Both the position numbers and the translations under genes were made by a program. From positions 1 through 32,640 of the forward strand of contig JAHDOA010000002.1 of the NCBI GenBank assembly GCA_018435055.1: 32,640 nt of DNA, written 5' to 3'. The DNA is from Pelotomaculum sp. (lineage in GTDB: Bacteria > Bacillota > Desulfotomaculia > Desulfotomaculales > Pelotomaculaceae). Below are positions 5,054 through 22,542 of the stretch, one piece after another (position 1 is the stretch's first letter; each line of letters opens with the position of its first letter). The notes beneath the pieces are model-generated. The model was not told where the DNA came from and ran no database searches. It saw only the letters and a list, made by a program, of their open reading frames with translations.

Positions 5054-5089
5054 ATGCAAAAACAGTGGATGTGGTATATAATGGCAAGA

Positions 5090-5854
5090 AAAGCGAGAGA
5101 AAAGTGTGAGAGTGGTATTTACCATGTTGTTTTAAGAGGAATCAACAGACAGGATATCTTCTGTGACGAGGATGATTTTAAATGTTTCCTGGAAACATTG
5201 TTACAGAAGAAATCGGAAAAACAATTTGCAGTATATGGTTATTGTTTAATGAACAACCATGTTCATTTATTGTTACGAGAAAATACCGATAAGATTTCAC
5301 GAATTATGAGCAGGATAGGGACCAGTTACGCATGGTGGTACAACCGTAAATATGGTAGAAGCGGCCACGTATTTCAGGGGAGATATGGAAGTGAATGTGT
5401 AGAAGATGATGCTTACCTGTTGACAGTAATTAGATATATACATAACAATCCGGTTAAGGCGAAAATGGTTATTACAGCCGAAAACTACCGCTGGAGCAGT
5501 ATTCAGGCATATTATGAAGGCAGGGAGTATCCCGACGGACTGACAGAACCAGAGTTCATTCTGGGAATATTTCATAAAAAGAGAACGGAAGCAATAAAAG
5601 GATTTAGAGAATTCATGCAGCAGAAGAATCAGGACCAATGCCTTGATGATCAAATCAAACTGCAGAAAACTGATAGTGAAGTGAAAGCCGAAATACAAAC
5701 CATTATGAATGGTGTGCCAATAGAAAAGCTAAAAGGGTTGGAAAAGTCACAACGTCAGGAAATTTTGCAAAAAATCAAGAAAAGCGAAGGGGTAACACAA
5801 CGTCAAATAGCGCGTGTAACGGGAATCAGTCAGAACATTGTGTTTAAGGCATGA
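5090..5854 (+). CDS. REP-associated tyrosine transposase (Y1/HUH family)
   Basis: A 254-residue single-strand DNA transposase of the IS200-like Y1 superfamily. It cuts and rejoins single-stranded DNA at REP hairpins through a catalytic tyrosine. Visible family features are the N-terminal GIYHVVLRGINRQDIF, the HUH-type motif NNHVHLLL near residue 57, the segment around SYAWWYNRKYGRSGHVFQGRY, and YIHNNPVKA. The C-terminus (GVTQRQIARVTGISQNIV) is a helix-turn-helix often found on RAYTs. An ATG at 5054 lies directly at the predicted transcription start, so the ATG at 5090, which begins the conserved ARKAREK segment, is preferred; its ribosome site is weak. The gene is intact and bracketed by REP palindromes. 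Confidence 0.85.
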   Translation, partial: KAREKCESGIYHVVLRGINRQDIFCDEDDFKCFLETLLQKKSEKQFAVYGYCLMNNHVHLLLRENTDKISRIMSRIGTSYAWWYNRKYGRSGHVFQGRYGSECVEDDAYLLTVIRYIHNNPVKAKMVITAENYRWSSIQAYYEGREYPDGLTEPEFILGIFHKKRTEAIKGFREFMQQKNQDQCLDDQIKLQKTDSEVKAEIQTIMNGVPIEKLKGLEKSQRQEILQKIKKSEGVTQRQIARVTGISQNIVFKA

Positions 5855-6782: not shown

Positions 6783-7322
6783 ATGTCAATATTCTTTTAT
6801 ATTTTTTCCATCCTATTGGCGAACTTCCTGTCTGCACAAATTCCCCCTCTGCAAATTGGGCTGTTTCTTATTTCGCCGGGTACGTTTACAATCGCGGCCA
6901 GCTTTATCCTCCGTGATTTGGTCCAGAACAGGTGTGGGAGGAGGAAAACATATTATTTTATTTTCCTTGCCCTAGTCCTTTCCGCCATTGCAGCCAAGGC
7001 CCTTGGAGATCCGCTTACAATAGTATTAGCCTCGGCCTGTGCATTTGCAGCCAGCGAGTCATCCGATACCGAAATCTATTCAAGGCTGAAATTACCCATG
7101 GCATGGCGGGTGTGGTGGTCCGGCCTGGCGGGTGGAATTCTGGATTCCGGCATATTCGTAATAATTGGCTTAAGCCCGCTCGGGATGAACTTTATACCCT
7201 GGCAGTCCGTACCAATTGCTGTTATTGGCCAGGCACTTTTTAAGATTGCTATGCAGGGCTTGGGAGCATTGGCAATTGCAATATATGTGAAAGCTCTGCA
7301 GATTAGCCTTAAGCTTATATAA
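6783..7322 (+). CDS. VUT-family (queuosine-precursor/YhhQ-like) membrane transporter
   Basis: A 179-residue integral membrane protein with about six hydrophobic segments and the family's early AANFLSAQ-like and later GGILDSGIFVIIG features; ILRDLVQNRCGRRK is a charged loop after helix 2. VUT (YhhQ-type) proteins move 7-deazaguanine queuosine precursors or related vitamins across the inner membrane. GAGG at 6771-6774 supports ATG 6783 rather than the upstream GTG 6777. The gene is a single unit; a REP palindrome plus T-run sits 4 bases after its stop. The substrate is inferred from the family only. Confidence 0.75.
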   Translation: MSIFFYIFSILLANFLSAQIPPLQIGLFLISPGTFTIAASFILRDLVQNRCGRRKTYYFIFLALVLSAIAAKALGDPLTIVLASACAFAASESSDTEIYSRLKLPMAWRVWWSGLAGGILDSGIFVIIGLSPLGMNFIPWQSVPIAVIGQALFKIAMQGLGALAIAIYVKALQISLKLI

Positions 7323-7324
7323 AA

Positions 7325-7367
7325 AGCGTTTCAGGAGAACCGTCCCCTTGACACGCTCGGGTTTTTT
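7325..7367 (+). terminator. REP-like 29-bp palindrome acting as terminator of the transporter gene
   Basis: The 29-bp unit at 7327-7355 (arms CGTTTCA/TGACACG, core GAACCGTCCCC) belongs to the dispersed REP family. Flanking A/T and G/C pairs extend the stem, and CGGGTTTTTT follows, so the copy can serve as a rho-independent terminator for the gene ending at 7322. Confidence 0.7.
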
Positions 7368-7427
7368 GTAAGAAATTAGGAGTTTATTAAAAAGAAAAAA
7401 TAAATATAAAAAAACATGGTTAAACCA

Positions 7428-7455
7428 GGAAGGCTGCCGTTACTGGCAGCCTTCC
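7428..7455. repeat. Perfect 11-bp hairpin
   Basis: GGAAGGCTGCC (7428-7438) and GGCAGCCTTCC (7445-7455) form a strong stem with a 6-base loop. No T-run follows on the plus strand; on the minus strand it is followed by an A/T-rich region (Ts opposite the A-tracts at 7389-7415), so it may terminate minus-strand transcription. Confidence 0.5.
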
Positions 7456-7460
7456 AATGT

Positions 7461-7575
7461 AAATTCCCGGGCGAGTTTGCTGATCGTCCTTTTTTCTATG
7501 AGCGATGAGTGTGATATGCCGAAGCTGCGTGCTATCTCCCGCTAGGACTTGTGATTCCCGTACTTCAGGTTCGAT
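7461..7575 (-). pseudogene. Sporulation sigma factor (SigK/SigE-type) region-4 relic, copy 1
   Basis: On the minus strand the sequence reads as the end of a sporulation sigma factor: YGNHKS, a stop where Gln/Thr-Gln is expected, then REIARSFGIS and, after a small deletion, IEKRTISKLA. This is the DNA-binding helix-turn-helix that recognises the -35 box. It parallels a second, better-preserved relic at 22914-23035. Only about 35 codons remain, with an in-frame stop, so it cannot be functional. Confidence 0.6.
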
Positions 7576-7592
7576 TCCTGCCAGGCGCACCA
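7565..7592 (+). other. tRNA 3'-end fragment (T-arm, acceptor strand and CCA)
   Basis: The T-loop TTCGATT (7570-7576), the T-stem 3' strand CCTGC, seven acceptor bases CAGGCGC, a discriminator A and CCA follow one another at exactly tRNA spacing. The T-stem has 4 of 5 pairs. No matching 5' half (GCGCCTG) is present upstream, so it is a fragment, the kind left at an attachment site of a tRNA-targeting integrase. It abuts the sigma-factor relic, whose similarity partly overlaps it, so chance resemblance is not excluded. Confidence 0.45.
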
Positions 7593-7605
7593 GCTACAAA
7601 ATGAA

Positions 7606-7740
7606 AAACCCTTTATTTGCAAGGGTTTGAGGCCCAGTAAAATAAAGAGAGACTAGGCTTAGGGTTCCGTAAGGAACCCTAAATTTACGGAGTTTTCTCT
7701 ACCTAGTAGGACAAAATGGAGGACAAAATGGAGGACAAGT
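7606..7740 (+). repeat. Hairpins and short direct repeats downstream of the tRNA fragment
   Basis: AAACCCTT (7606-7613) pairs with AAGGGTTT (7621-7628). TTAGGGTTCC (7659-7668) pairs with GGAACCCTAA (7673-7682) across a GTAA tetraloop. A short tandem repeat, GGACAAAAT-type with GGAGGACAA units, covers about 7708-7740. No gene is evident. The mix of a tRNA end, strong hairpins and direct repeats suits a former integration site, which is inference. Confidence 0.4.
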
Positions 7741-7961
7741 CCGACAAAAAAGTCCGACAAGATTTTAGGTTTAATCCTATACATAAGCTATATAAAATTT
7801 ATTTACGGTGCAGAGAACACCGTTTTTTTAGTGGATTTTTGTTCAAAAATTCTTCTTATACATACATGTACAATGATACAAATCCAAAAGAAGTGTTTTT
7901 TTTGTACGTTTTTAATTCGAAGGTGGCTTCCACGCTATACGCGTACAATATCGCCCTCCAT

Positions 7962-8037
7962 GGGAGTTTAGCTCAGCTGGGAGAGCGCTTGCCTTACAAG
8001 CAAGATGTCGGCGGTTCGATCCCGTCAACTCCCACCA
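7962..8037 (+). tRNA. tRNA-Val (anticodon TAC)
   Basis: A 76-base gene with a full cloverleaf: acceptor GGGAGTT/AACTCCC, D-arm TAGCTCAGCTGGGAGAGC, anticodon stem CTTGC/GCAAG enclosing CTTACAA (anticodon TAC), T-arm GGCGG-TTCGATC-CCGTC with one G-T pair, and encoded ACCA. It stands alone and is followed at once by a strong terminator. Confidence 0.97.
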
Positions 8038-8088
8038 GAAAAAGCAATAGCACCGTAGATAACCTACGGTGCTATTGCTTTTTCTGTG
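8037..8088. terminator. Strong bidirectional terminator after tRNA-Val
   Basis: A long perfect stem of about 22 bp, with GCAATAGCACCGTAG (8044-8058) pairing with CTACGGTGCTATTGC (8064-8078) and continuing into flanking A-run/T-run pairs, loop ATAAC. Runs of T on either strand make it work in both directions. It separates the tRNA from the convergent kinase relic and regulator gene. Confidence 0.9.
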
Positions 8089-8091
8089 CCT

Positions 8092-8300
8092 AGAACATAA
8101 AGAGAATCTGTAATAGATAAATTAGCCATTTCCAGTTGTTCTATCATTACATTAAAGTACTCCCTGTCCTGTTCATACCCGTCTTTATCTTTTAATAATT
8201 ACAGAAGATCTTTTACCGTGATCAATAGATCCTAATTTCATGAGCAATGGTAGTCGCCATTTTACTTAAAAGATTTAACCGGTCCAGGCGAGACCTTCCC
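8092..8300 (-). pseudogene. Histidine kinase HisKA-domain relic downstream of the AraC-PAS gene
   Basis: Reading the minus strand directly after the regulator's stop, but in another frame, gives DLKQSDKGRSRLDRLNLLSK, then MATTIAHEIR, which is the H-box of a histidine kinase (phospho-acceptor His in HEIR). After another frame change it continues ITVKDLL, a TAA codon, then LLKDKDGYEQDREYFNVMIE and QLEMANLSITDSL, the second HisKA helix of the Spo0A-kinase-like type. The ATPase domain is missing; the sequence runs into the tRNA terminator. At least two frameshifts and a stop show it is decayed. Confidence 0.75.
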
Positions 8301-10397
8301 TTATCCGACTGTTTTAAGTCGGTAATAATCAGTAATAAAACTGAACAAGACCTGCTCACCGTCAAGGCAGGTTTTTTCTGCAGATAATAGTACGATACTT
8401 ACCTCACCTGACTTTTTGCGAATGAGGATTTCATAATTGCTGCAACTGCCATGCAGCAAAACCTTTTGCACCACCTCATTGATTGACCAGGAGTTGAAAA
8501 CATCTAATTTTGTAAGTGTTGTGCCAATTAACTCCTCACGGCTATAGCCGGTATAGCGCAGGAAGTTATTGTTTACATCAAGGCAGCGCATATCATTGAG
8601 CGAACTGAAGATCATTTGTGCGGGACTGTCATAGAACGCTTTTAAAAATCTTCCCCCTGATAATCGTATATTATCTTCCATGTGCTTGGGTTCTGTTATT
8701 TCCACCATCAGCTCAAGCGCAAGTATAGTTCCATCAATATCATGAAATGGGTATTGAAAAATCTGGAAAATTTCACCCCCCGGAGATACCCACTCCCATT
8801 CTAATTGAGTCCCATTTTGAAAAGCAGCCTGAACTGGACAATTCTGACAGGGCCGACACATGCTGAAGTAAAGCTCGTAACACGATCTTCCTTTAACTTC
8901 CCCAAAGCGCTTGCGATGGTTGATGTTAGTAAAGCGTATTGTGTAATCCGGTGCAATCAAGCTGACATAGGCCGGCAGCCTTTCAAGAAGTGAAAACAGC
9001 CTGTCCCTCTCTGAGATAAGATTCTCCTCCGCCAGCTTTCGCTCGGTTATATCTCGCCCGACTGACTGGTATTCCACCAATTGGCCAAGCTTGCTAAAAA
9101 TAGCGCTGTTAGTCCACTGCTGCCACCTGATACTGCCATCAGACAGTATAACACGGTGTTCGATGGTTGACGCAGGATTTTCATTGCAGAGAGAAGCAAT
9201 ATGATTTCCGAATCTTTCCCTATCGGAATCAAGGATCATAGTGATGAATTTTTTTCCAAGCATTTCTTCACGGCTTTTTCCGTAATAGCGGCTGTATGCT
9301 TCGTTTACAAAAGTAAGCGTGGTATCCGGCAAATAGCGGCATATCAGTTCGGTCTGGTTTTCCACTATGGCCTGATAGCGCCTGTCACTAAGCTCCAGAG
9401 CCTGCTCGGATAGATTTTTGCCGAGCACCTTAATCTGACTAACTTTCTTGCGATACTCCATTGGAGATATTCCCATGAAAATTTTAAATGCAGCTGCGAA
9501 TTTACTTGGGCTATTATAGCCAACTTCCCGAGCTACATCAGATATATTTATTTGGGGTTGGCTAAGTAGAGTGCAAGCATGCTTCATTCGATTTGCCCTT
9601 ATATAAGCTGCTATAGGTATACCGTAAATTTTCTTGTAATAGGTTTTTAAAGTCGTTGAACTGATACAATTCTGCCGTGCCAATGCATCAATTGTAAAGT
9701 TAGCCTTTGGGTTTTCCGTAATTTGTTTATTTATGTGTTTTATAATGTCAACCTGTTGTTGGAAATATAATTTTCGCTGTTCTTCAGAGGAAACTTCAAA
9801 AAAGTTCAAAAAAACCAGCAATTCTAGCAACTTTAACTTAAAGTAGGTTTTTCGCGAGGCTTTTGGCGCAGAATACATAGCATTGAATATTTGATCAATT
9901 TTATCTCGCGAGTATATCATTAAATGTTGAGTATTCGCAAGCAACTTTTCGCATAGGGCATAAAAATCAATGTTTAGATCATTTAATAATTTTATTCGTG
10001 AGATTTCTTCAGCAAATTTGTCAATATAAAAGATAACAGTGAAGCCCTTGTAATGTTTGAGTGGGAATTCTATGTTATCACTATGATTGCGCATGGTATT
10101 TATAATCATATCGCCTTCACCCAGATAAATTAAACTTCCATCCTTCATCCTGTATTCGGCTCGGCCTTCATGACAGTAATTTAATTCGATAATATTATCG
10201 TCTGTATGTGTCATGACCGCACAAGAAGCAGATTCAAATTCTTGGTATATCAAATCGATGCCAGGAAATACATTATAGACCGTTAACACTCCCGATCCAT
10301 CCTTACAATTCATATGATAAACGGTTGTGTCACGATCTGGTTTTTCAATTGATGTCGCATTTTTAATGAACGGATGTGTGTGGTTCGTTTTTTTCAA
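8301..10397 (-). CDS. AraC-family regulator fused to three PAS domains
   Basis: TTG start (complement of 10395-10397) behind GGAGAGGG; 698 residues. Residues 1-210 are an N-terminal sensor region of the AraC type (LNYCHEGRAEYRM, IYLGEGDMII). Residues about 212-320 are the double helix-turn-helix (INISDVAREVGYNSPSKFAAAFK, then GISPMEYRK). PAS domains follow at about 337-462 (ending GRDITERKLAEE), 463-575 (with a cysteine cluster CRPCQNCPV) and 576-698. Placing PAS domains after the DNA-binding domain with no output domain behind them is unusual. The last PAS ends abnormally and a kinase relic continues in another frame, so the gene seems to derive from a fusion with a PAS-kinase. It is transcribed away from the hydroxylase operon and is its likely regulator, through the CGGAC repeats at 10614-10690. 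Confidence 0.85.
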   Translation of the reverse strand: MKKTNHTHPFIKNATSIEKPDRDTTVYHMNCKDGSGVLTVYNVFPGIDLIYQEFESASCAVMTHTDDNIIELNYCHEGRAEYRMKDGSLIYLGEGDMIINTMRNHSDNIEFPLKHYKGFTVIFYIDKFAEEISRIKLLNDLNIDFYALCEKLLANTQHLMIYSRDKIDQIFNAMYSAPKASRKTYFKLKLLELLVFLNFFEVSSEEQRKLYFQQQVDIIKHINKQITENPKANFTIDALARQNCISSTTLKTYYKKIYGIPIAAYIRANRMKHACTLLSQPQINISDVAREVGYNSPSKFAAAFKIFMGISPMEYRKKVSQIKVLGKNLSEQALELSDRRYQAIVENQTELICRYLPDTTLTFVNEAYSRYYGKSREEMLGKKFITMILDSDRERFGNHIASLCNENPASTIEHRVILSDGSIRWQQWTNSAIFSKLGQLVEYQSVGRDITERKLAEENLISERDRLFSLLERLPAYVSLIAPDYTIRFTNINHRKRFGEVKGRSCYELYFSMCRPCQNCPVQAAFQNGTQLEWEWVSPGGEIFQIFQYPFHDIDGTILALELMVEITEPKHMEDNIRLSGGRFLKAFYDSPAQMIFSSLNDMRCLDVNNNFLRYTGYSREELIGTTLTKLDVFNSWSINEVVQKVLLHGSCSNYEILIRKKSGEVSIVLLSAEKTCLDGEQVLFSFITDYYRLKTVG

Positions 10398-10444
10398 TGT
10401 GTCCCTCTCCTTTGTTTCTAAATACGCTCTGGGAAACCAGGGGT

Positions 10445-10473
10445 ATTATAAAGAAGATTATTTATGGAACGAA
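10445..10473 (-). promoter_or_regulatory. Weak candidate promoter for the AraC-PAS gene
   Basis: The minus strand carries a perfect TATAAT (complement of 10445-10450), with TTCGTT 17 bases upstream as a poor -35 box. A weak -35 would fit an activated or low-level promoter. The start codon lies about 47 bases downstream. Confidence 0.35.
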
Positions 10474-10613
10474 AGACAAAACTCACATATCAAACTATCC
10501 ACGTAAAACTATTCACAAATAATTACTTTCACTCCCTTAATAAAACAAATTGCCGAAATTATCTGCAAAAAGAATTATATTATTTTAGCTATCAAAAGAC
10601 AACATAAATCCTG

Positions 10614-10690
10614 CCCCAAGCGGACTTGGTTATAGCCCATACGGACATATCCGCCCCGAGCGGACTTAGTTTTAGCCTAAACGGACACAG
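10614..10690 (+). promoter_or_regulatory. Putative operator: two 34-bp direct repeats holding four CGGAC sites
   Basis: Two near-identical repeats begin at 10614 and 10654 (40 bp apart), reading CCCCRAGCGGACTTRG, then TATAGCC or TTTAGCC, then a second ACGGACA. CGGAC occurs at 10621, 10642, 10661 and 10682, so the steps are 21, 19 and 21 bp, each about two helical turns. AraC/XylS-type activators typically bind direct repeats about 21 bp apart upstream of the -35 box. The block ends about 18 bases before the -35 hexamer of the hydroxylase promoter, so the AraC-PAS protein is the obvious candidate to bind it. Confidence 0.7.
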
Positions 10691-10704
10691 TTGCTTTGGG
10701 TTTA

Positions 10705-10733
10705 TTGACTACATATTTTGCGATTCGTATACT
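10705..10733 (+). promoter_or_regulatory. Sigma-A promoter of the molybdenum hydroxylase operon
   Basis: TTGACT (10705-10710) and TATACT (10728-10733) with a 17-base spacer, close to consensus. Transcription would start near 10740, giving a leader of about 57 bases before ATG 10797. It lies just downstream of the CGGAC operator block. Confidence 0.75.
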
Positions 10734-10796
10734 TAATAAAAGTGTTTCGACAAAATGCGAGGGAGGATTCACTTAAATTAGCAAAGGAGAGATTGT

Positions 10797-13070
10797 ATGA
10801 AAAGCCTGAAAATTGTCGGCGTCAGTCATCCCATCCACGATGCCAAAGCCAAGGTCCGTGGCAATGCGAATTACGCCGGCGACATGCAGCTTGCGGGAAT
10901 GCAGTATGCCGCAATGCTGTTGAGCCCCAAACCTCATGCATTGATTAAATCCATTGACGCTTCCGAAGCGCTAGCTCTGGAAGGCGTGGAAACGGTGTTG
11001 CATTGCTTCAACACCACGGAGCGCACGTTCAGCCGTTTCCGCACAGTGTCGCGCCAGCCTGGTATTATGAATCAGGAGCGAGTGTTCAACCGCGAGTTGA
11101 GACAAGTTGGTGACCGTGTGGCTTGTGTGGTGGCAGATACGCCAGAAATTGCCCGCCAAGCGGTGAGATTGATCAAAGTGGAATATGAAGATCTACCTTT
11201 CACAACGGATGTGTATGAGGTGCTGGACGGCGCCTTAGCGGACATGCATCCCGAGGGCGCCTTCTTTGAATTTGAGAGGGAGATGGGCGATAAGAGCCTG
11301 GTAGCTCAGGATTGCGTGGAAACAGTCACCCATAGCAGTTTGGACCGTATGTCCCACACTGCGATGGAGCCTCATGCTTGCGTGGCTTACTACAACAAGA
11401 GCATGGATGAAATGACCATTTGGAGTCCCAACCAGACCGTTTTTGGTATACGTACTGTGGTCGCAGATCTGTTTGAGATGCAGTATCACAAGGTGCGAGT
11501 GATCAAATCCACTATGGGCGGTTCCTTTGGCTGCAAACAAGACTGGATATTGGAACCTATAGCCGCTTGCGCAACCCTGGCTACAGGTAAACCGGTGAAG
11601 CTGGTCTATAGCCGGGAGGAAGTCATGCTTAACACCTCATGCCGCGCCCCGTTTATAGCGGATGTGAAGTCCAAGTTTACGCGGGACGGTGTGCTGCAAA
11701 GTTTAGATGCCGACGTGATTGCAGACGCGGGTGCTTATCTGGGTAACACCATGGCTTATCTCGGGTATCAATCCGCATTGATGCCCCGCACCTACAAATA
11801 TCCCTATGCCAGGTACCGTGGGCGGGGTGTCTGTACCAACGGCACGACTTCCGGCGGGCTAAGGGGTTGGAGCTCAGGGGAATTGTGTCTCTTTGTGGAT
11901 CATAACTTCAACATGGCCGCCCGTAAGCTGGGTATTGACCCGTTGGAACTGCGTCTTAAGAATGTTTATAAGCCGTGGGAAAAAGAGATGGCCGACAATA
12001 TTTCGCTGGAAGAGATTCGCACTAAGGAGTGTATTGAACTGGGCCGGGAAAAATTTGCCTATGATGAGAAAAAGCGGGCGGATGCGGATTTCAACAGTAA
12101 AAATGAACGCTACCAGCGTGGCGTAGGGGTTTCCTGCGGCGGTCACTTTAATGGCTATTTCCCACACGCTCTTGATTTTTCGGGTGTTGAGATGCGTTTT
12201 ACTGAAAGCGGCAGCGTTATTGTCAACGTTGCTGTGCATGACCACGGTTGCGGTACGGTGCAGGCTATTAAAATGATTGTGGCGGAAACGTTGGGCCTGC
12301 CGGTGGATATGATCTGGTGCGCGGAAGGGGATTCAACTTATAACCCCTTTGATACCGGCTGTTATGCCAGCCGATCCATTTATGTGATAGGACGGGCTGT
12401 CAAGGATTGTTGTCACAAGCTGCAGGAGCAACTACTGCAAGATATGGCTAGTGCGCTGGGATTGCCCGAGGAAGATCTTGAGATCGTCGATGCGCAGGTG
12501 CGCTCCAAGAATGATCCCTCCATCTGCTTCAACTACACCGAGGCGGTGCACAAGATCTTATTCACTCTCGTAAAAGAAGTCTGGGTTAAGCATGAATATG
12601 CCAATACAACCAACTGCGGCGTAACGGGCACACATTTCGCCCATGTAGAGGTGGATACCTGGACCGGTATGACCAAAATACTGGACTATATGGCCGTGCA
12701 TGATATCGGCAGAGCCATCAACCCGGAGATATGCAGAGCACAAGTCCAGGGCGCGGCGCTGATGGGCAGCGGTGTTGCCCTGATGGAGTCGTTGCATACC
12801 AATCCTAAGAATGGCAAGAGCGTTTCCAGTTTGAAAAATTATCACGTGATCAACGCTTGGGAGGCGCCGCAGGTTCAAGTGTTATTTGTTGAGGACGGCC
12901 TCACGGGAGGACCGTACGAATCAAAATCTATCGGCGAGGTTGCGCTTGTGCCGGTGGCGGCCGCTATCGTAGGTGCTGTCAATGAGGCGCTGCAGAGCGA
13001 TTTTTGCGAGTGCCCGCTGAACCCGGATAAAATCGTTGCCATGATGCAGGAAAGGAGGACAAAAGCATGA
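10797..13070 (+). CDS. Molybdenum hydroxylase large subunit (xanthine dehydrogenase family, molybdopterin-binding)
   Basis: AAGGAGAG precedes ATG 10797; 757 residues, close to E. coli XdhA. It holds the aldehyde oxidase/xanthine dehydrogenase a/b hammerhead domain (about 18-125) and the two-lobed Mo-cofactor domain. Visible motifs: MGGSFGCKQDW (about 239), SREEVML, the GGLRGW loop with the conserved active-site Arg, and KSIGE with the base Glu at 714. The GQG loop that normally places a Gln over the Mo reads HGCGT, with Cys at 485. It binds the Mo centre and hydroxylates the substrate with water as oxygen donor, passing electrons to the 2Fe-2S subunit. It overlaps the next gene by ATGA. The substrate is not determined; purine or N-heterocycle is likely. 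The yqeB/yqeC neighbours suggest a selenium-dependent enzyme. Confidence 0.9.
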   Translation: MKSLKIVGVSHPIHDAKAKVRGNANYAGDMQLAGMQYAAMLLSPKPHALIKSIDASEALALEGVETVLHCFNTTERTFSRFRTVSRQPGIMNQERVFNRELRQVGDRVACVVADTPEIARQAVRLIKVEYEDLPFTTDVYEVLDGALADMHPEGAFFEFEREMGDKSLVAQDCVETVTHSSLDRMSHTAMEPHACVAYYNKSMDEMTIWSPNQTVFGIRTVVADLFEMQYHKVRVIKSTMGGSFGCKQDWILEPIAACATLATGKPVKLVYSREEVMLNTSCRAPFIADVKSKFTRDGVLQSLDADVIADAGAYLGNTMAYLGYQSALMPRTYKYPYARYRGRGVCTNGTTSGGLRGWSSGELCLFVDHNFNMAARKLGIDPLELRLKNVYKPWEKEMADNISLEEIRTKECIELGREKFAYDEKKRADADFNSKNERYQRGVGVSCGGHFNGYFPHALDFSGVEMRFTESGSVIVNVAVHDHGCGTVQAIKMIVAETLGLPVDMIWCAEGDSTYNPFDTGCYASRSIYVIGRAVKDCCHKLQEQLLQDMASALGLPEEDLEIVDAQVRSKNDPSICFNYTEAVHKILFTLVKEVWVKHEYANTTNCGVTGTHFAHVEVDTWTGMTKILDYMAVHDIGRAINPEICRAQVQGAALMGSGVALMESLHTNPKNGKSVSSLKNYHVINAWEAPQVQVLFVEDGLTGGPYESKSIGEVALVPVAAAIVGAVNEALQSDFCECPLNPDKIVAMMQERRTKA

Positions 13071-13537
13071 GATTAGAATTTACGGTAAATGACAAGAAGC
13101 GCGTTCTGGAAGTGTCGGCGGATAAGCGATTGATCGATATACTGCGTGAAGACCTTGGTCTTATGGGCACTAAGGAGGGCTGTGGCGAAGGCGAATGCGG
13201 CGCTTGCACCATCCTCCTGGATGGGAAAGCCATCCATTCCTGTTTGCTGGTGGCTGCCCAAATGTCTGGCAGAAATGTGACAACGATCGAAGGGCTGGAA
13301 AAGAACGGTAAGCTTGATCCGCTTCAGTCGGCTTTTGTGGAAGAAGTGGCTATACAATGCGGATACTGTACACCGGGTATGATACTCTCTGCCAAAGCGC
13401 TCCTACTGGAAAATCCTGCGCCGACTGAAACAGAGATACGACGGGCACTGGCTGGTAATATCTGCCGGTGTTCCGGATACACCCAAATTATACGCGCTGT
13501 AGAACGCGCGGCACGGGAAGGGGGAGCTGCAATATGA
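13067..13537 (+). CDS. Molybdenum hydroxylase 2Fe-2S subunit
   Basis: A 156-residue small subunit with two [2Fe-2S] clusters. The plant-ferredoxin-like N-terminal domain has CGEGECGAC plus a later Cys (SCLL), and the C-terminal helical domain has CGYCTPGM and ICRCSGY. It relays electrons from the Mo centre to FAD. ATG overlaps the large-subunit stop (ATGA) and its own stop overlaps the FAD-subunit start, so the three subunits are translationally coupled. Length and all eight cysteines match intact family members. Confidence 0.95.
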   Translation: MRLEFTVNDKKRVLEVSADKRLIDILREDLGLMGTKEGCGEGECGACTILLDGKAIHSCLLVAAQMSGRNVTTIEGLEKNGKLDPLQSAFVEEVAIQCGYCTPGMILSAKALLLENPAPTETEIRRALAGNICRCSGYTQIIRAVERAAREGGAAI

Positions 13538-14382
13538 GCGTGAAATGCTATGCGCCTAAGAATATGGAGGAATTGTTCTCAGAACTGGCAAAAATGACTC
13601 CGGAAAGCAAAATTATCGCCGGTGGCACGGATTTGAACATCCGTATGCGTATGGGCTTAACCAAAGCGGACGCTCTGCTTTTTGTGGGTGGTATTAATGA
13701 AATGCGTCAAATTGTCGAGAAGGACGGGAAGGTTGAGATCGGTGCTGCGGCCACCATGAGTGAAATAGCGAAAAGCCCGCTCCTGCAGGGCGGCCTGGCT
13801 GCTATCGCGGACGCGGCTGGTGATGTGGGCTCTGCCCAGATCCGAAACAATGCCACCATTGGCGGCAGTGTGGCCAATGCTTCGCCGGCCGGTGATATAA
13901 TAGTTCCCTTATTTTTGTTGAAGGCGGAAGCGGTAATTGCTAACAGCAAGGGCGAGTTGCGGTGTTTGCCTATTTCGGAAGTGGTATTAGGACCGAGTAA
14001 AAACTGCCTTAGCTATGACGAAGCCATCGTGAAATTCGTACTGCCATTGGCCCTGCCAGGCCGCAGCAGTGCTTTTGTTAAGTTAGGCTTCCGCAAAGCG
14101 GTGACCATTGCCCGGATCGGTTTGACTGTCAGCCTGAATGTGGGTGCGGACGGTCTCATAAAGGAAGCGGAAATGATGGTGGGCGCTATCTCACTTGTAC
14201 CGCTGCGCATGGAAGCGGCAGAACAGTATATGCTTGGTAAGCGGCCGGATGAGGCAGTGGAGACAGTGGGCCGGATGCTTTCAGATTTGATAATGGAAAA
14301 AACCCCGGAGGAATTTGACCGGGATTATAAAGTGGGTGCCGCTCGTGGTGCAGTTGACGATCTGTTGAAGCGTTTTTGCTAA
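13534..14382 (+). CDS. Molybdenum hydroxylase FAD-binding subunit
   Basis: Start at ATG 13534, overlapping the small-subunit stop and preceded by GGGGGAG; 282 residues. The FAD_binding_5 domain shows IIAGGTDLNIRMRMG (pyrophosphate loop) and ATIGGSVANASPAGD (second FAD motif), followed by the CO-dehydrogenase flavoprotein C-terminal domain (about 170-280). It accepts electrons from the iron-sulfur subunit and passes them to NAD(P)+ or another acceptor. It completes a large-small-medium gene order; a strong hairpin follows its stop. Confidence 0.95.
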   Translation: MSVKCYAPKNMEELFSELAKMTPESKIIAGGTDLNIRMRMGLTKADALLFVGGINEMRQIVEKDGKVEIGAAATMSEIAKSPLLQGGLAAIADAAGDVGSAQIRNNATIGGSVANASPAGDIIVPLFLLKAEAVIANSKGELRCLPISEVVLGPSKNCLSYDEAIVKFVLPLALPGRSSAFVKLGFRKAVTIARIGLTVSLNVGADGLIKEAEMMVGAISLVPLRMEAAEQYMLGKRPDEAVETVGRMLSDLIMEKTPEEFDRDYKVGAARGAVDDLLKRFC

Positions 14383-14390
14383 AATATCAT

Positions 14391-14427
14391 TGCTTTATCA
14401 CCGCCCTTAAAGGGCGGTGATAAAGCA
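14391..14427 (+). terminator. Strong hairpin at the end of the hydroxylase operon
   Basis: TGCTTTATCACCGCCC (14391-14406) pairs with GGGCGGTGATAAAGCA (14412-14427) in a perfect 16-bp stem. There is no T-run afterwards, so it may protect the mRNA 3' end or partly attenuate read-through rather than terminate efficiently. The 180 bases up to the next gene show no other clear element. Confidence 0.55.
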
Positions 14428-14611
14428 GGATAACCAAAGAAGCAAGAGGGTATTTCAGTTAATATGCCAATGTGCTAGACAGTAGTAGGTATAAGAACCG
14501 TAACGCCAAAAGATTTATAAATAGTGCATTTCTTTTTACGCACAATTGAATCGTGTTTCTGGAAACATTTGATCATTGAGTGAAAATGTCTAGTCGGAAG
14601 GGGAATATTTG

Positions 14612-15130
14612 ATGAAAGCATATTTAGTGAAATTTTCCGCGGTAGTCGGTGTAACGTGTTCCGTTTTGATGGTGCTTTATTTTTCGTTTATGCCCGCTCC
14701 ATTAAGTAATTATTTATGGGTATCTTTTTTCGCATGTGCAACAACTGTAGCTCTAGGTGCAAAAATAGAAGAAATCCCCAACTATTATTTAAGTGCACTA
14801 GTGGGTTCAATTTGGGCCGTGGCTTACTTTGTTAGTACACCGTTCGTGATGCAATGGGGAGTAAGCTTTAATGTAGCCTTATTAATTTCTATAACTATCG
14901 TTACATTCGCCCTGGTATTTGTCCATGCAATTCTTACTGGTGGAACTTGGTTTAATAAGATTCCTCTTATGTTCACAGCTGTAGCTGCAATTTATGGTAT
15001 AGGTGGAACAGGAGAATTTAGTTGGTTGCTGCCTGTGTATGTGTTTATCCCTATGTGTGTAGGAATAACCTTAGGGCTTTCTTGGGCGCCGCTAACAAAT
15101 CTATTCCACAAGGAAAAAGTGGAAGCTTAA
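14612..15130 (+). CDS. DUF1097-like membrane protein
   Basis: ATG 14612 follows GGAAGGGG at good spacing; 172 residues. About five or six hydrophobic helices, for example VVGVTCSVLMVLYFSFM, ALLISITIVTFALVFVHAIL and LLPVYVFIPMCVGITLGLSW. The pattern, length and the GGTGEFSWLLPVYVFIPMCVG ending region (shown in part here) resemble the DUF1097 family (E. coli YcdZ), whose function is unknown. Lying between the hydroxylase and its maturation genes, it could be a transporter for the substrate or a cofactor precursor, but nothing in the sequence proves this. Confidence 0.6.
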   Translation: MKAYLVKFSAVVGVTCSVLMVLYFSFMPAPLSNYLWVSFFACATTVALGAKIEEIPNYYLSALVGSIWAVAYFVSTPFVMQWGVSFNVALLISITIVTFALVFVHAILTGGTWFNKIPLMFTAVAAIYGIGGTGEFSWLLPVYVFIPMCVGITLGLSWAPLTNLFHKEKVEA

Positions 15131-15236
15131 GCTCAAAAATTACAAATGTTGTTAAGTGTTCTTAACATTCGTTAGACAATTGAAATTTAAAATAAGTATA
15201 CATCTCATAAAAACTACTTTACCTTTCTTTTCTTTC

Positions 15237-15305
15237 CCTTGACATGGGTACTTGATGTTTAAAATGTCTTGAATCAGAATTGTATCCATTACAAGGTAAT
15301 TTTTT
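15237..15305 (+). promoter_or_regulatory. Long-stem hairpin with T-run (element C), upstream of the HD gene
   Basis: CCTTGACATGGGTAC (15237-15251) pairs with GTATCCATTACAAGG (15282-15296), about 13 of 15 positions including a wobble, around a 30-base loop and followed by TAATTTTTT. The left arm shares TTGACATGG with two larger hairpins at 19641-19931. A pyrimidine-rich tract precedes it. It could be a terminator or attenuator for the maturation genes. No other feature is evident in the rest of the 315-base gap. Confidence 0.5.
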
Positions 15306-15445
15306 AAAAAGAATCATCATCACTATAGCGTTAATCAGCCGGTTAAAACTTTTTACGGTTTAACAATTCGTATCTTTAACTTGGTATAAATCACAATAGC
15401 CGAATAACAAACCGATAAAAATGAAGCTGGAGAGAGGAGCAGTTT

Positions 15446-16036
15446 ATGCAACAGGATATGGACACACCGGAAGACTATCTTTATTTACAAAGCTGCCATA
15501 GAAGAAAATCCATACCAACCCTTGATCAATGCAGGCGAATTTTATTTGAAAACGGGGTGGGGGAACAAGTTATAGAACATTGCTCCATGGTTACGGTTAT
15601 AGCTATGGAAATGGCCAGCCGGCTGAATAAAGCCGGGGCGGAATTAGATATGGACTTAATACTAACCGGCGCCCTGATGCATGATGTTGCCTACGGTAAA
15701 CCTGACCACGCGCAGGCCGGGGCAAGACTGCTGGAATCCAGGGGCTACCCCCTACTGGCGGAAGTTGTGAGCGTTCACACGGATATCGAAGTAAGCGAGT
15801 CACACCCTCTTACCGAATCTGAAATTGTCTTCCTGGCGGGCAAAATGATCAAAGGGAGACATATAGTCTCCGTAAAAGATCGCTTTGCCGTGGAATTGGA
15901 GAAATATAAAAACAACCCGCAGGCGTCCACCGCTGTTGTAAAAAGGTGGAAACAAGCTGAGCGGATTATGCTGAAGATAGAAAAAATAACAGGAGGTCCT
16001 GTTGAGAGTGTACCGGTGTCGGACTTTCATCTTTAA
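15446..16036 (+). CDS. HD-domain phosphohydrolase of a molybdenum hydroxylase cluster
   Basis: GAGAGGAG precedes ATG 15446; 196 residues. HD motif residues are visible: the first His in EHCSMVTV, the HD pair in ALMHDVAYGKPDHAQAGA, and the later His in EVVSVHTDIEV. HD proteins hydrolyse phosphomonoesters or nucleotides with bound metals. In some anaerobes a similar HD domain is fused to, or adjacent to, MocA-type nucleotidyltransferases, which fits its position at the head of the maturation genes. The C-terminal tail (about 150-196) is helical and basic. Its substrate is unknown. Confidence 0.75.
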   Translation: MQQDMDTPEDYLYLQSCHRRKSIPTLDQCRRILFENGVGEQVIEHCSMVTVIAMEMASRLNKAGAELDMDLILTGALMHDVAYGKPDHAQAGARLLESRGYPLLAEVVSVHTDIEVSESHPLTESEIVFLAGKMIKGRHIVSVKDRFAVELEKYKNNPQASTAVVKRWKQAERIMLKIEKITGGPVESVPVSDFHL

Positions 16037-16064
16037 AATGGATTTTTCGAGGGAGATGAAATGT

Positions 16065-16124
16065 ATGCTTATGCTGCCGGTCGAAAATGTGGTGGGCTTG
16101 ATATTTAAGGGGTGCGAACGATGA
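16065..16124 (+). CDS. Possible 19-aa leader peptide overlapping the MoeA-like gene
   Basis: GAGGGAG at 16049-16055 precedes ATG 16065, which opens a 19-codon frame whose TGA overlaps the ATG at 16121 (ATGA), the arrangement used for translational coupling. The peptide (MLMLPVENVVGLIFKGCER) resembles the start of the MoeA-like protein itself (VEDAVGKVL), so it may be a duplicated and decayed N-terminus instead of a working gene. Confidence 0.3.
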   Translation: MLMLPVENVVGLIFKGCER

Positions 16125-17155
16125 GAATACAGACAATCAAGGTGGAAGACGCTGTCGGCAAGGTCTTGAGCCACGACATCACCAAAGTCGTTAAGGGAGA
16201 GTCCAAGGGAGCTTCTTTTAAAAAAGGGCACATCATCAAGATCGAAGATATCCCGGAGCTTTTGAAGCTGGGCAAAGAAAACATCTATATCTTGGAGCTT
16301 GAGAAGAGCGACGTCCACGAGGATATCGCCGGGGTGCGGCTGGGCACAGCTGTCGCGGGCGAGGGCACAGTCTGGAGCGGCCCGAAGGAAAGCCGCGTCA
16401 ACCTGCACGCCGAGTACAAAGGGCTGCTCAAAGTCAATATCCCCGCCTTAGAGGCCGTTAACGACCTGCCGGAAGTAATACTTTCCACCCTGCCGAACAA
16501 CACGGTCGTAAAAAAAGGCGACCTTTTAGCCGGCACCAAGGTGATCCCTTTGGTAGTGCCGGAGCAGACAGTCCTGACGGCGGAAAACATCTGCCGGCAG
16601 GCCGGCTGGGTGGTCAAAGTGCTTCCGTTTCAAAGCCATAAAGTAGGCGTGGTAATAACCGGCAACGAGGTTTACAAAAAGCGCATCCGCGACGGTTTCG
16701 GACCGGTAATTACCGAGAAGGTGGAATCATACGGCTCTACCGTACTGGGCGTGGACTTCGCGCCTGACGACGTGGATGTTATATCAGGCAAGATCAAAAA
16801 AATGGCTGGCGACGGGGCGGACATAATATTCGTAACCGGCGGCATGTCGGTAGACCCCGATGACGTCACCCCCAGGGCCATTCGCCTCACCGGGGCCGAT
16901 GTCATAAAATACGGCGCTCCGGCGCTGCCCGGGGCGATGTTTATGCTGGCCTACCTGGATGATATACCTGTCATGGGCGTGCCGGCCTGCGGCATGTTTT
17001 TCAAAACAACCATCGTCGACCTGCTGCTGCCCAGGCTGCTGGCGGGCGAGGTGATAACCCGCAGGGATATCGTGGCCCTGGCCAACGGCGGGCTGTGCCG
17101 TTCCTGTCCCGAATGCAGGTATCCCAACTGCACATTTGGTAAAGGCTCAAATTAA
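16121..17155 (+). CDS. MoeA-like molybdopterin-binding protein
   Basis: AAGGGG supports ATG 16121; 344 residues. The N-terminal part (IKVEDAVGKVLSHDITKV) and the central MoaB/Mog/MoeA-type domain (VGVVITGNEVYKKRI, then IIFVTGGMSVDPDDVTPRAI and GAPALPGAMFMLAYL) are those of molybdopterin-binding proteins that help insert molybdate into the pterin. It is shorter than canonical MoeA (about 400) and ends with a cysteine-rich tail CRSCPECRYPNCTFG, four Cys in a row of motifs that may bind a metal or take part in sulfur/selenium transfer. This MoeA-like form commonly accompanies yqeB and hydroxylases. The following 60 bases carry GGAGGA and a small frame leading to yqeB. Confidence 0.8.
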   Translation: MRIQTIKVEDAVGKVLSHDITKVVKGESKGASFKKGHIIKIEDIPELLKLGKENIYILELEKSDVHEDIAGVRLGTAVAGEGTVWSGPKESRVNLHAEYKGLLKVNIPALEAVNDLPEVILSTLPNNTVVKKGDLLAGTKVIPLVVPEQTVLTAENICRQAGWVVKVLPFQSHKVGVVITGNEVYKKRIRDGFGPVITEKVESYGSTVLGVDFAPDDVDVISGKIKKMAGDGADIIFVTGGMSVDPDDVTPRAIRLTGADVIKYGAPALPGAMFMLAYLDDIPVMGVPACGMFFKTTIVDLLLPRLLAGEVITRRDIVALANGGLCRSCPECRYPNCTFGKGSN

Positions 17156-17216
17156 TTGTCTTTGTTTGTACTTGTCTTGAGATAAAATATCGGTCCCCCG
17201 GAGGATTAATAAAACA

Positions 17217-17321
17217 TTGGAAAGTAACCTGCAGCAAGGGAAAACCATCATCACCGTAATAGCACAGGACAAGCTGGTAAGCACCTTTGCCAAAGCCTTT
17301 GACGGCGGTGAAGCACAGTGA
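17217..17321 (+). CDS. Possible 34-aa ORF coupled to yqeB
   Basis: GGAGG at about 17199-17203 precedes TTG 17217. The frame encodes 34 residues (ESNLQQGKTIITVIAQDKLV and on) and its TGA overlaps the GTG start of yqeB. It reads like the C-terminal end of a longer protein, so it could be either a real small coupled gene or the tail of a deleted one. I do not recognise it. Confidence 0.35.
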   Translation: MESNLQQGKTIITVIAQDKLVSTFAKAFDGGEAQ

Positions 17322-18166
17322 GACCGTTGGTTATCATCAAAGGCGCGGGCGACCTGGCAACCGGAGTCGCTTACCGCCTGTACCAGTGCGGGATTGATGT
17401 GGTCATGACCGAAATAAGCCGGCCGCTGGTGGTCAGGAGAAAAGTTGCCTTTGCCGAGGCCGTCCACGACGGCACGGCCACAGTTGAGGGGATTACAGCC
17501 AGCCTGGCTTTTAGTGCAGAGCACGCCTGTGAGCTGCTTGACGGCAGGATTATCCCGGTCCTGGTAGACCCGGAAGCCAAGGTGATTAAAATTATGCGCC
17601 CGCAGGTGGTAATTGACGCCAGGGTGGCCAAGCGCAACATGGGCACCACCATGGACGAAGCACCGCTGGTGATCGGGCTGGGGCCAGGCTTTACAGCCGG
17701 TCAGGACGTCCACGCCGTAATTGAAACCTGCCGGGGGCACCGTTTGGGAAGAGTAATCTACAGCGGCGGCGCTATTCCTAATACAGGGAATCCCGGAAAT
17801 GTAGGCGGTTATACAGTAGAAAGGCTTTTAAGGGCTCCAGTGGAAGGTGTTGTGATGACGACCCGAGCTATCGGGGATCAGGTAGAAAAAGGCGAAGTGG
17901 TGGCTATTGTGGAAAACACCCCGGTCTGCGCCCAAATCAGCGGGCTGCTCAGGGGCATGATCAGAGAAGGCGTCCGGGTGCCCCAGGGGACTAAGATCGG
18001 TGATACCGATCCGAGAAAAGACGCCGAGTGGGATACCATATCAGATAAAGCCCTGGCCGTGGGCGGCGGCGTGCTGGAAGCTGTGTTCAATTTTATGGCA
18101 AAACCGGGTAAAACATGGCCTCAGCCCGGTTCATTAAAAACAAATGAGGAAATTATAACAGGATGA
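17318..18166 (+). CDS. yqeB: YqeB, selenium-dependent molybdenum hydroxylase maturation protein
   Basis: GTG start overlapping the stop of the small upstream frame; 282 residues. The N-terminus carries the family signature IKGAGDLATGVAYRLYQCG, a Rossmann-type loop, then MTEISRPLVVRRKVAFAEAV. The C-terminal half (about 165-260) is a lipoyl/biotin-like hammerhead (GVVMTTRAIGDQVEKGEVV). YqeB is known as a marker of selenium-dependent molybdenum hydroxylases, which carry a labile selenium ligand on Mo without using selenocysteine; its exact reaction is unsettled. Its stop overlaps the yqeC start (ATGA), so the two are co-translated. No selD gene is visible in this window. Confidence 0.85.
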   Translation: MRPLVIIKGAGDLATGVAYRLYQCGIDVVMTEISRPLVVRRKVAFAEAVHDGTATVEGITASLAFSAEHACELLDGRIIPVLVDPEAKVIKIMRPQVVIDARVAKRNMGTTMDEAPLVIGLGPGFTAGQDVHAVIETCRGHRLGRVIYSGGAIPNTGNPGNVGGYTVERLLRAPVEGVVMTTRAIGDQVEKGEVVAIVENTPVCAQISGLLRGMIREGVRVPQGTKIGDTDPRKDAEWDTISDKALAVGGGVLEAVFNFMAKPGKTWPQPGSLKTNEEIITG

Positions 18167-18912
18167 GAATCTGTGAAGCCCTGGACCTTAAGGAAAATGA
18201 AATCGTTTCCTTTGTCGGAGGGGGCGGCAAGACCTCCCTGATGTTCCGGCTGGCGGAGGAAATACCTCTGCCGTATAACGTTGTTATTACCACCACGACA
18301 AAAATATATCGGCCCTCGCCTGAAAAATACCCCCTGGTCCTTTTAGGAAAAGAAGATCAGGTGGAAAAAGAGCTGGCTGGATATCTTAAGTCGGGTTTAA
18401 GGCCGGTGGTCGGAAGCGGGCTTTTGGAAAACAATAAAGTAAACGGAATTTCACCCGGGCAGGTAAGCCTGCTGCAGGGCTGCGCGGACTATATACTGGT
18501 AGAAGCCGACGGCTCCAAGGGACTTCCCCTGAAAGGGCATTTGGATTATGAGCCCGTAATTCCCGGGGCGACAACAGTGCTGGTGGTTGTGGTAGGAGCT
18601 GACATCCTGGGCAAAACCCTCGACAAAAAGCATGTGCACCGGCCGGAGATAGTTTCACAGCTGACCGGCCGTGAAATTGGGACTGTGATTGACGCCGGGC
18701 TTATAGCCGAACTCATTGCACACCCGCGGGGAATGCTGAGGGAGTGCCCGCCCGGAGCGAGGGTAGTGCTGTTTATAAACAAGATGGACCTGCTGCCGAA
18801 CCCGGATGAGGGCTGCAACCTGGACGGTCTGTTGCCGGGGAAGAATATTGAAAAAGTAATACTGGGCTCAGCGATAGGGGAAGAGCCTGTGCGCGTTGTT
18901 CTGGAACAGTAA
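18163..18912 (+). CDS. yqeC: YqeC, putative selenium-dependent hydroxylase accessory NTPase
   Basis: Starts at ATG 18163 inside the yqeB stop; 249 residues. A P-loop (VSFVGGGGKTSLMFRLAEE) lies near residue 15, followed by VVITTTTKIYRP, VEADGSKGLPLKGH and VLFINKMDL, consistent with the YqeC family of P-loop proteins. It is thought to act with YqeB in making or inserting the selenium-modified Mo cofactor. Length is normal for the family. Confidence 0.85.
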   Translation: MRICEALDLKENEIVSFVGGGGKTSLMFRLAEEIPLPYNVVITTTTKIYRPSPEKYPLVLLGKEDQVEKELAGYLKSGLRPVVGSGLLENNKVNGISPGQVSLLQGCADYILVEADGSKGLPLKGHLDYEPVIPGATTVLVVVVGADILGKTLDKKHVHRPEIVSQLTGREIGTVIDAGLIAELIAHPRGMLRECPPGARVVLFINKMDLLPNPDEGCNLDGLLPGKNIEKVILGSAIGEEPVRVVLEQ

Positions 18913-19038
18913 AAGTCGCTGCGAGACAAAAGTCCTTTTAGGAATTAAAGCAGTACAATATGAGGCGTTAACAAAGCCGTTATCAAAGTTTTCATAAAAG
19001 GGTTTTTGTGTCGCCGCAGGGGCGGTGGTAATGCAAGT

Positions 19039-19626
19039 ATGATCTCAGCAATCATTTTAGCAGCGGGGATGTCTGTAAGGATGGGCAGGCCCAAACAACT
19101 GCTCAAAGCGGGAAACAGTACAATGATCAGGATTGCAGTTGAAAACGTGCTGCTTTCAGGTGTTGATGAAGTAATTGTTGTGACAGGCTGCCAGCAGAAA
19201 AAGGTCAGCGGCGAGATCAGCGACCTGCCTGTCAGAGTGGTTTTCAATCCCCGCTATAAAGACGGCCAGGGTACTTCCCTGTCCCTGGGGGTAAAATCAA
19301 TTGATGGCGGCGCGTCAGCATTCATGGTTTTCATGGTGGACCAGCCATTAATCTCCGCTTCATTGATTGACATCATTATCGAAGAGTTTCAAAAAAGGCG
19401 CTGCCTGGTACTCCGCCCGGTCTGCAAAGACCTGCCCGGCCACCCTGTAATATTCAGCAGCACCCTGCGCGATGAACTGAAAAACATTAGCGGGGATGAG
19501 GGTGCGCGACAGGTGTTGAAAAAGCTTGACGACCGGGTAGAATATCTTGAGGTGCAGGATGAAGCAGTGGTTTTTGACGTAGATACCCCCGGGGACTTTA
19601 AAGAATTGGTGAAGAAGCTGAACTAG
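19039..19626 (+). CDS. mocA: MocA-like molybdenum cofactor nucleotidyltransferase
   Basis: ATG 19039 is preferred because the signature ISAIILAAGMSVRMGRPKQL begins there; upstream codons are not conserved in character. The 195-residue protein has the MobA-like NTP-transferase fold: LAAG loop with RMG and K, VVTGCQQ, and MVDQPLIS (metal-binding Asp). MocA adds CMP to Mo-molybdopterin, giving the cytosine dinucleotide form used by xanthine-dehydrogenase-family enzymes. It sits 126 bases after yqeC; two long hairpins follow it. Confidence 0.85.
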   Translation: MISAIILAAGMSVRMGRPKQLLKAGNSTMIRIAVENVLLSGVDEVIVVTGCQQKKVSGEISDLPVRVVFNPRYKDGQGTSLSLGVKSIDGGASAFMVFMVDQPLISASLIDIIIEEFQKRRCLVLRPVCKDLPGHPVIFSSTLRDELKNISGDEGARQVLKKLDDRVEYLEVQDEAVVFDVDTPGDFKELVKKLN

Positions 19627-19640
19627 ATATTTTTTAAATA

Positions 19641-19752
19641 TTAACCCCAACTACATTAACTCTCTCATAGCCTTTGACATGGACAATGCCCTCATGCGGG
19701 GCCAACATGTCCCTGAATTTAAATAGCCGTCCATGTCAAGGACACCTTTTTT
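19641..19752 (+). promoter_or_regulatory. Long-stem structured element A with T-run
   Basis: A leading box ACCCCAACTACATTAACTCT (about 19643) is followed by CCTTTGACATGGAC (19671-19684), which pairs with GTCCATGTCAAGG (19729-19741) in a 13-bp stem with one bulged T. The 44-base interior has its own small stem (GCCC/GGGC). ACACCTTTTTT follows. It resembles a terminator with an elaborate loop, or a cis-acting RNA. A related element B follows after about 65 bases. Confidence 0.55.
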
Positions 19753-19817
19753 AAAATTAACGCGATATACGTTTGTTTAAAATAAATTTTAAAACTGAAA
19801 AATTAAATTTATATAAA

Positions 19818-19931
19818 TTTACCCCAGCTAAATGTACTCTACCTCTCTAACCCTTTGACATGGATACCTTCCATAATATAAAGGGACGCAAAAGTCACCT
19901 GGCAGTTATTCATGTCAAAGGAACCCTTTTT
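19818..19931 (+). promoter_or_regulatory. Long-stem structured element B with T-run
   Basis: Tandem relative of element A: the box ACCCCAGCTAAATGTACTCT (about 19820), then CCTTTGACATGGAT (19852-19865) pairing with ATTCATGTCAAAGG (19908-19921) around a 42-base interior of different sequence, then AACCCTTTTT. Conserved box and stem with a diverged interior imply selection on structure or descent from one repeat. It lies 80 bases before the ThiS/MoaD-like gene. Confidence 0.55.
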
Positions 19932-20007
19932 CATTGATTGCGGTTAGTTAACCAGACTTCGTCAAGCGGTATCATTGAATAAAGTATTTTTTTGGGGGTG
20001 CTAGTAT

Positions 20008-20208: not shown

Positions 20209-20214
20209 ACCAAA

Positions 20215-20400: not shown

Positions 20401-20483
20401 TTTTTCATACCCCTTGAAGGCCGTAAGGTTATTTTAATTGAAAAAGCCGGTGACAGATAAAGGATGCTGGAAGAAGGAGGGAA

Positions 20484-21275: not shown

Positions 21276-21360
21276 TGGACATGTTGATGGTGTAACAGGA
21301 CTTGTCTTGAGGTAACTCTGATATAAAAAATAAACTGATTTGAGAAGGTGACTATAGGAT

Positions 21361-22467: not shown

Positions 22468-22542
22468 AAAATTGCCGGAAGCATGGGAAGTCTTTGTTTC
22501 GGAGGGGCTGCATATACTTTGCAGCTATTTGGAGGAATCAAA

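Follow-up and report, generated by a model that had tools for sequence, protein, structure and literature searches.

Here we describe a gene that joins a complete AraC-type regulator to three PAS domains in one reading frame. It lies in the window, the whole stretch of 32,640 nucleotides of Pelotomaculum sp. DNA that was analysed, and encodes a product of 698 residues (Table 1). Directly behind it, two other frames carry the broken remnant of a kinase HisKA domain. Comparison with related proteins suggests that an AraC regulator was joined to the PAS array of a histidine kinase, that the transmitter of the kinase decayed, and that the product is a working one-component regulator; we consider this reading probable. 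A more specific account, in which an AraC protein took over the kinase PAS array and was kept by selection as AraC-PAS3, with the dead transmitter attached as a fossil, has about an even chance of being right.

In the course of events that we propose, a gene of the stand-alone AraC type would have been fused in frame to the three final PAS domains of a multi-PAS kinase of this family, the join falling in a helical linker. After the fusion, frameshifts and a stop codon would have broken down the HisKA domain, and the ATPase domain would have been lost. The break after this loss would now be filled by a copy of a tRNA-Val gene and its terminator.

Table 1. Features of the fusion locus and its surroundings (positions in the window)
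Feature	Position	Strand	Evidence or remark
tRNA-Val(TAC) and terminator, copy of a tRNA cluster end, at the place of the lost kinase catalytic end	7962..8101	+	
HisKA remnant, pieces 2 and 3, LITVKDLL*LLKDKDGYEQDREYFNVMIEQLEMANLSITD (LITVKDLL*LLKDKDGY...NLSITD), another frame	8088..8225	-	
HisKA remnant, piece 1 with H-box, DLKQSDKGRSRLDRLNLLSKMATTIAHEIR (DLKQ...MATTIAHEIR), shifted frame	8231..8320	-	
AraC-PAS1-PAS2-PAS3 fusion gene, 698 aa	8301..10397	-	ORF, Pfam, AlphaFold
PAS3, complete fold, stops just before the first frameshift	8328..8669	-	Pfam PAS_9 4-100/103
PAS2, including CRPCQNCP at 8858-8835	8673..9044	-	Pfam, kinase alignment, fold model
PAS1	9045..9401	-	Pfam, kinase alignment, fold model
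Fusion junction, helical linker: AraC homology stops, kinase linker homology (SEQALELSDRRYQAIVE) starts	9402..9437	-	
HTH_18 / AraC DNA-binding domain, residues 239-317	9447..9683	-	Pfam PF12833, E 4.3e-19
Complete AraC-type regulator part, residues 1-320: N-terminal beta-rich (cupin-like) domain and double HTH	9438..10397	-	
Promoter-like site TTGTCT-17-TATAAT, reads into the fusion gene	10574..10602	-	
Putative operator: 35-nt direct repeat, twice, 86% identical	10613..10692	+	
Promoter-like site TTGACT-17-TATACT, reads into the xdh-type operon	10705..10733	+	
Xanthine-dehydrogenase-family molybdenum hydroxylase operon (large, FeS, FAD subunits), divergent from the fusion gene	10797..14382	+	
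HATPase_c 3' fragment of a same-family PAS kinase, 75 aa	22652..22876	+	Relation to the fusion gene uncertain

AraC part, PAS array and their junction

The open reading frame starts at a TTG codon preceded by a good ribosome-binding site, AAGGAGAGG, and has no lesion over its 2,094 nt. An AraC domain followed by three PAS domains, as read in the first-pass annotation, is borne out in a single frame by the ORF, Pfam and AlphaFold. Pfam places HTH_18/HTH_AraC at residues 239–317 and the PAS domains from 339 to 690, and PF00165 also matches the AraC part (E 2.4e-12). DNA-binding and PAS domains are located on one polypeptide that contains no transmitter domains, as in HTH-PAS one-component regulators. 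The Pfam scan found no receiver domain in the protein, and the AraC part is N-terminal, an arrangement other than the sensor-HisKA-receiver-AraC order of hybrid two-component regulators. The product would most likely be a working one-component regulator of the HTH-PAS-like kind.

AlphaFold models the AraC part at a pLDDT of about 90–97, with a fold like that of ToxT, Rns and CsvR. The part keeps 27 of the 28 nearly invariant columns of its stand-alone homologues. Residues 13–320 have 23 homologues in the order and phylum (25–39% identity). All 23 stand alone, nearly all of their frames stop 1–13 residues past the match, and none carries a C-terminal extension like that of the fusion. An HTH at or near the C-terminus is usual in the AraC/XylS family, not required, and Rob-type members differ. 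Here the HTH ends at residue 317 of 698, away from the usual position. The fusion protein is an AraC-family DNA-binding protein, departing from its family in this non-C-terminal HTH.

PAS1, PAS2 and PAS3 are all modelled as complete folds (mean pLDDT 86) when the alignment holds PAS sequences only; the model from a mixed alignment was poor in PAS1 and PAS2. The array is colinear with the kinases of the family and corresponds to the sensor part of a PAS histidine kinase. An intact kinase of a sister genus (L004, G008:C132, 891 aa) is colinear over PAS1-PAS2-PAS3-HisKA at 42% identity. In a joint alignment, the identities of PAS1, PAS2 and PAS3 to the kinases are 37%, 25% and 31%, within or near the range of the intact kinases. 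Conserved columns are kept at a normal level in PAS1 and PAS2. PAS3 keeps only 16 of 25, below most colinear kinases, so the constraint on this domain may be relaxed.

A cysteine cluster, CRPCQNCP, had been pointed out in one PAS domain in the first-pass annotation. It is present, as residues 514–521 inside PAS2; its distinctiveness did not hold, and we rejected it as a special feature, since at least 13 other kinases carry a cluster at the same place and it is common to this PAS subfamily. The cluster may serve the subfamily as a redox or metal site, and it is not peculiar to this protein.

The two homologies meet within a few residues. The ends of the AraC homologues map to residues 317–321, and the alignment with the kinases begins at about residue 320–333. 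GC3 steps at the junction, from 33% in the AraC part to 47% in the PAS part. The AraC gene is A+T-rich and was probably acquired by transfer. In the model from the mixed alignment, a single helix runs from the last helix of the HTH into PAS1, although PAS1 and PAS2 of that model are of low confidence. We speculate that the PAS array, being joined by this continuous helix to the last HTH helix, would serve as a second input. This input might act through dimerisation, or through domain contact with and holding of the HTH, rather than through phosphorylation.

Transmitter remnant and lost kinase end

The first frameshift occurs at 8328–8321. Behind it, DLKQSDKGRSRLDRLNLLSKMATTIAHEIR is read in a frame that differs from the fusion ORF and overlaps its last 20 nt. 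A third frame contains LITVKDLL at 8225–8202, then a stop codon, then LLKDKDGYEQDREYFNVMIEQLEMANLSITD. An H-box, MATTIAHEIR, in the next frame with further frameshifts beyond it had been noted at first reading, and the remnant indeed occupies two other frames with one stop codon. The H-box is present out of frame, so that an intact, in-frame HisKA domain is lacking. With X placed at the breaks, the joined pieces matched dozens of family kinases over residues 2–74 (best E 1.5e-17, 49–52% identity). Because the X-joined pieces match HisKA domains family-wide, the remnant is not a chance match. HATPase_c is absent behind the remnant, and the only such piece in the window is a detached 75-aa fragment on the other strand. 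The product is not a histidine kinase, because in-frame HisKA and HATPase_c were both tested and both found absent.

The decay is uneven along the locus. The HisKA remnant shows 47% identity to kinases that share 64–75% among themselves in the joint alignment, and it keeps 22 of 37 conserved columns, which is clearly low. Three lesions fall in about 230 nt. At this rate the PAS part would be expected to carry about 14 lesions, or, counted more cautiously, about 10 if the lesion that ends the ORF is left out. The simplest reading of this pattern would be that constraint continued to act on AraC-PAS once the transmitter had been freed from it. Alternatively, the whole locus is a dying gene, an accidental fusion whose AraC-PAS frame has been open through a short time only. 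Such a gene would be at home beside 7293–8100, which is gene debris (the 3' end of a sigma-factor gene, a tRNA-Arg fragment and the tRNA-Val copy), and the dead kinase end and the somewhat lower conservation of PAS3 agree with it. However, HisKA has lost about 20 identity points and gained its three lesions, whereas the adjoining 2,094 nt have none; the AraC invariants are intact, and the first lesion sits at the PAS3/HisKA boundary. We regard a dying gene as rather unlikely.

The junction or the frameshifts could also be errors of assembly or sequencing, given a genome in 70 contigs with an estimated contamination of 4.4%. Against this, the join keeps the frame and falls in a helical linker, at a natural boundary between domains. 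Three separate lesions together with the loss of the ATPase domain are not all base-call errors; two further independent lesions follow the first frameshift within about 130 nt, so sequencing error explains the whole poorly. Artefact is, in our estimate, highly improbable.

HisKA homology can be followed to about 8100, where it gives way to the tRNA-Val terminator copy. Sequences like this copy also stand at the end of a tRNA cluster that follows a sigma-factor gene, both elsewhere in the genome and in relatives. The tRNA-Val with its terminator is 83% identical to G000:C42, whose tRNA cluster end is the apparent source type of the copy beside the kinase remnant. The sole Rfam match was the tRNA. 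On G000:C42, an IS200/IS605-like transposase ORF (L165, 1460–2108) lies directly after the tRNA-Val terminator of the cluster.

The detached HATPase_c fragment raises the question of whether an inversion of 8.1–22.65 kb split one fused kinase, of which this fragment would be the other half. Inverting 8088–22650 sets HisKA before the HATPase piece, so that order and orientation fit, and both pieces find their best match in the same G008 kinase. In G008, however, the HD gene comes directly after Vut_1, oriented as in the window, so no inversion is needed. The HATPase piece, unlike HisKA, is undecayed, with a mean identity of 67.5% to its relatives, the level seen among intact ones. About 72 residues are missing between the two pieces, and the window holds other 3'-end-plus-terminator fragments, one of which, a copied sigma-factor 3' end, adjoins the HATPase piece. 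On the G008 synteny and the unequal decay we rejected the inversion as unlikely, and we hold it to be quite improbable. The undecayed state, the gap, the orientation in G008 and the neighbouring sigma-factor end lead us to take the fragment as probably separate, unrelated debris.

Several detached gene 3' ends, some with terminators, are found in the window (7421–7570, 7566–7738, 7962–8101, 22652–22876 and 22912–23030), and they may result from a process that disperses 3' ends. Two copies of a sigma-70-region-4 gene end are 79% and 93% identical to the copy on G000:C38, and a tRNA-Arg 3' end with its downstream flank is 73% identical to G000:C28. A Y1 (IS200-like) transposase at 5054–5854, with a possible HTH end, and a short repeat around GGGGACGGTTCTC (7317–7359), which recurs many times in this genome and in its genus, look like a REP-associated transposase pair.

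Relatives and known regulators

We searched for relatives of the fusion in 150 related genomes, 113 of the order, 398 of the phylum and 395 of a second phylum, usually with up to about seven candidates scored per genome. Neither an AraC-PAS fusion nor an intact AraC-PAS-kinase appeared in about 890 genomes, among the matches listed, and plasmid records contained no AraC-PAS fusion. No orthologue of the locus is present in the relatives compared. In the sister genus G008, about 1.2 kb separates Vut_1 from the HD gene, and the AraC-PAS block is missing between them. Among the relatives, none was found that has AraC-PAS-PAS-PAS but lacks the kinase remnant, nor is there a separate intact kinase at this place.

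These results bear on how much of the kinase was taken. The first-pass annotation had proposed the fusion of an AraC regulator with a PAS kinase whose catalytic end then decayed. The stand-alone AraC homologues, the colinear PAS-HisKA order and the decayed HisKA support the two sources and the decay. The order AraC-PAS-HisKA that it expected in relatives did not turn up, and since an intact AraC-PAS-kinase was not found, we infer rather than observe fusion with the whole kinase, as against capture of the PAS end alone. In the latter case, the PAS domains came from a kinase already truncated or decaying, and an AraC-PAS-HisKA-HATPase hybrid never existed. The lack of an intact hybrid in the genomes searched is in keeping with such a capture. 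A kinase that decayed before the fusion should, however, show lesions in its PAS domains too, and none are seen; moreover, the genome sample contains no close sister with the locus. We consider capture of the PAS end alone possible, though doubtful, and prefer fusion followed by decay.

Of the two presumed parents, the acceptor resembles the stand-alone AraC/XylS regulators of the ToxT/Rns fold (L005, L007, L063, L064 and others). They share the beta domain and double HTH over residues 13–320, are 32–39% identical to the AraC part and keep the conserved columns. They end at residue about 320, whereas the fusion adds 370 residues with three PAS domains. The inspected ones adjoin ABC or nickel-type transporter genes, while the fusion adjoins a molybdenum-hydroxylase operon. 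The donor resembles L004, a multi-PAS kinase with the same PAS1-PAS2-PAS3-HisKA order and a CxxCP cluster in a PAS2-type domain. Compared with L004, about 300 N-terminal residues are replaced by the AraC regulator, HisKA is broken and HATPase is lost, so the fusion protein cannot be a kinase.

The HTH of MltR is XRE-like, and PpsR carries its PAS domains N-terminal to a Fis-type HTH. The closest functional parallels to the fusion combine an N-terminal HTH and a C-terminal PAS in one protein, as do FG214 (PMC13060918) and MltR/MmyB-like proteins (PMC3406030). In FG214 the C-terminal PAS can release or sequester the N-terminal HTH (PMC13060918), and a comparable control of the HTH by PAS was proposed for MltR (PMC3406030). 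These proteins have a LuxR- or XRE-like HTH and one PAS, whereas the fusion has an AraC double HTH, an N-terminal domain of its own and three kinase-derived PAS domains. PpsR, a triple-PAS repressor (PMC3949515; PDB 4hh2), is the top structural match of the PAS part; three PAS domains control an HTH there as in the fusion, but it has no kinase remnant. A Rob-type regulator of this genome (L002) likewise places an AraC HTH before a C-terminal ligand-binding domain, which is GyrI-like rather than PAS, and Rob-type regulators lack the N-terminal AraC domain. In the open literature we found no described AraC-PAS fusion, only HTH-PAS precedents with other HTH types. HTH-PAS one-component regulators are known, and an AraC-type member with three kinase-derived PAS domains would be a new variant within the scope of our genome and open-literature searches.

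Moves of sensors between one- and two-component systems are usually deduced long after they happened, from scattered architectures. At this locus the donor type, the acceptor type, the junction and the discarded catalytic remnant can be read together, so that the direction (from kinase sensor to DNA-binding protein), the fusion linker and the order of decay can be stated. The locus offers a clear, if modest, case of a sensor moved from one kind of signalling protein to another, and its product is a testable natural sensor swap on an AraC scaffold. If the more specific account, with AraC-PAS3 kept by selection, is true, a two-component sensor array has been caught directly during its re-use in a one-component regulator.

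Divergent operon and putative operator

Direct repeats spaced by about two helical turns are the DNA sites to which AraC/XylS regulators bind. The promoter-like sites of the divergent genes enclose four CGGAC motifs, at 10621, 10642, 10661 and 10682, with a spacing of 21, 19 and 21 bp. They belong to a 35-nt repeat that has its two copies here and none elsewhere in the genome. A run of four phased CGGAC motifs occurred in 0 of 2,000 dinucleotide shuffles, but the duplication makes two of the four dependent; since the array is largely one 35-nt duplication, the four-fold periodicity counts as about one independent event. The promoter-like sites themselves are close to chance (2 found, 1.4 expected from shuffles). 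Taken by position, sites and array would match what is expected where an AraC-type regulator controls a divergent operon, and the xdh-type operon is the probable target. The N-terminal and HTH parts may bind the phased repeats, and the fusion protein would control both the molybdenum-hydroxylase operon and its own gene. The domain architecture, the junction, the remnant, the uneven decay and the geometry of the promoters can be seen in the sequence; expression of the gene, DNA binding by its product, the target and sensing by the PAS domains are what we infer.

The closest homologue of the operon (G022, 88%) has a different upstream region that lacks an AraC-PAS regulator. The block 10796–14420 is 88% identical to G022:C102, from a different genus; the unrelated flanks start exactly at the start codon, and the similarity stops just after the last gene. 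The operon looks like a horizontally moved block. Downstream of it, at 17318–18912, are homologues of yqeB and yqeC, which serve in the maturation of the selenium-dependent molybdenum cofactor, so the hydroxylase may itself depend on selenium.
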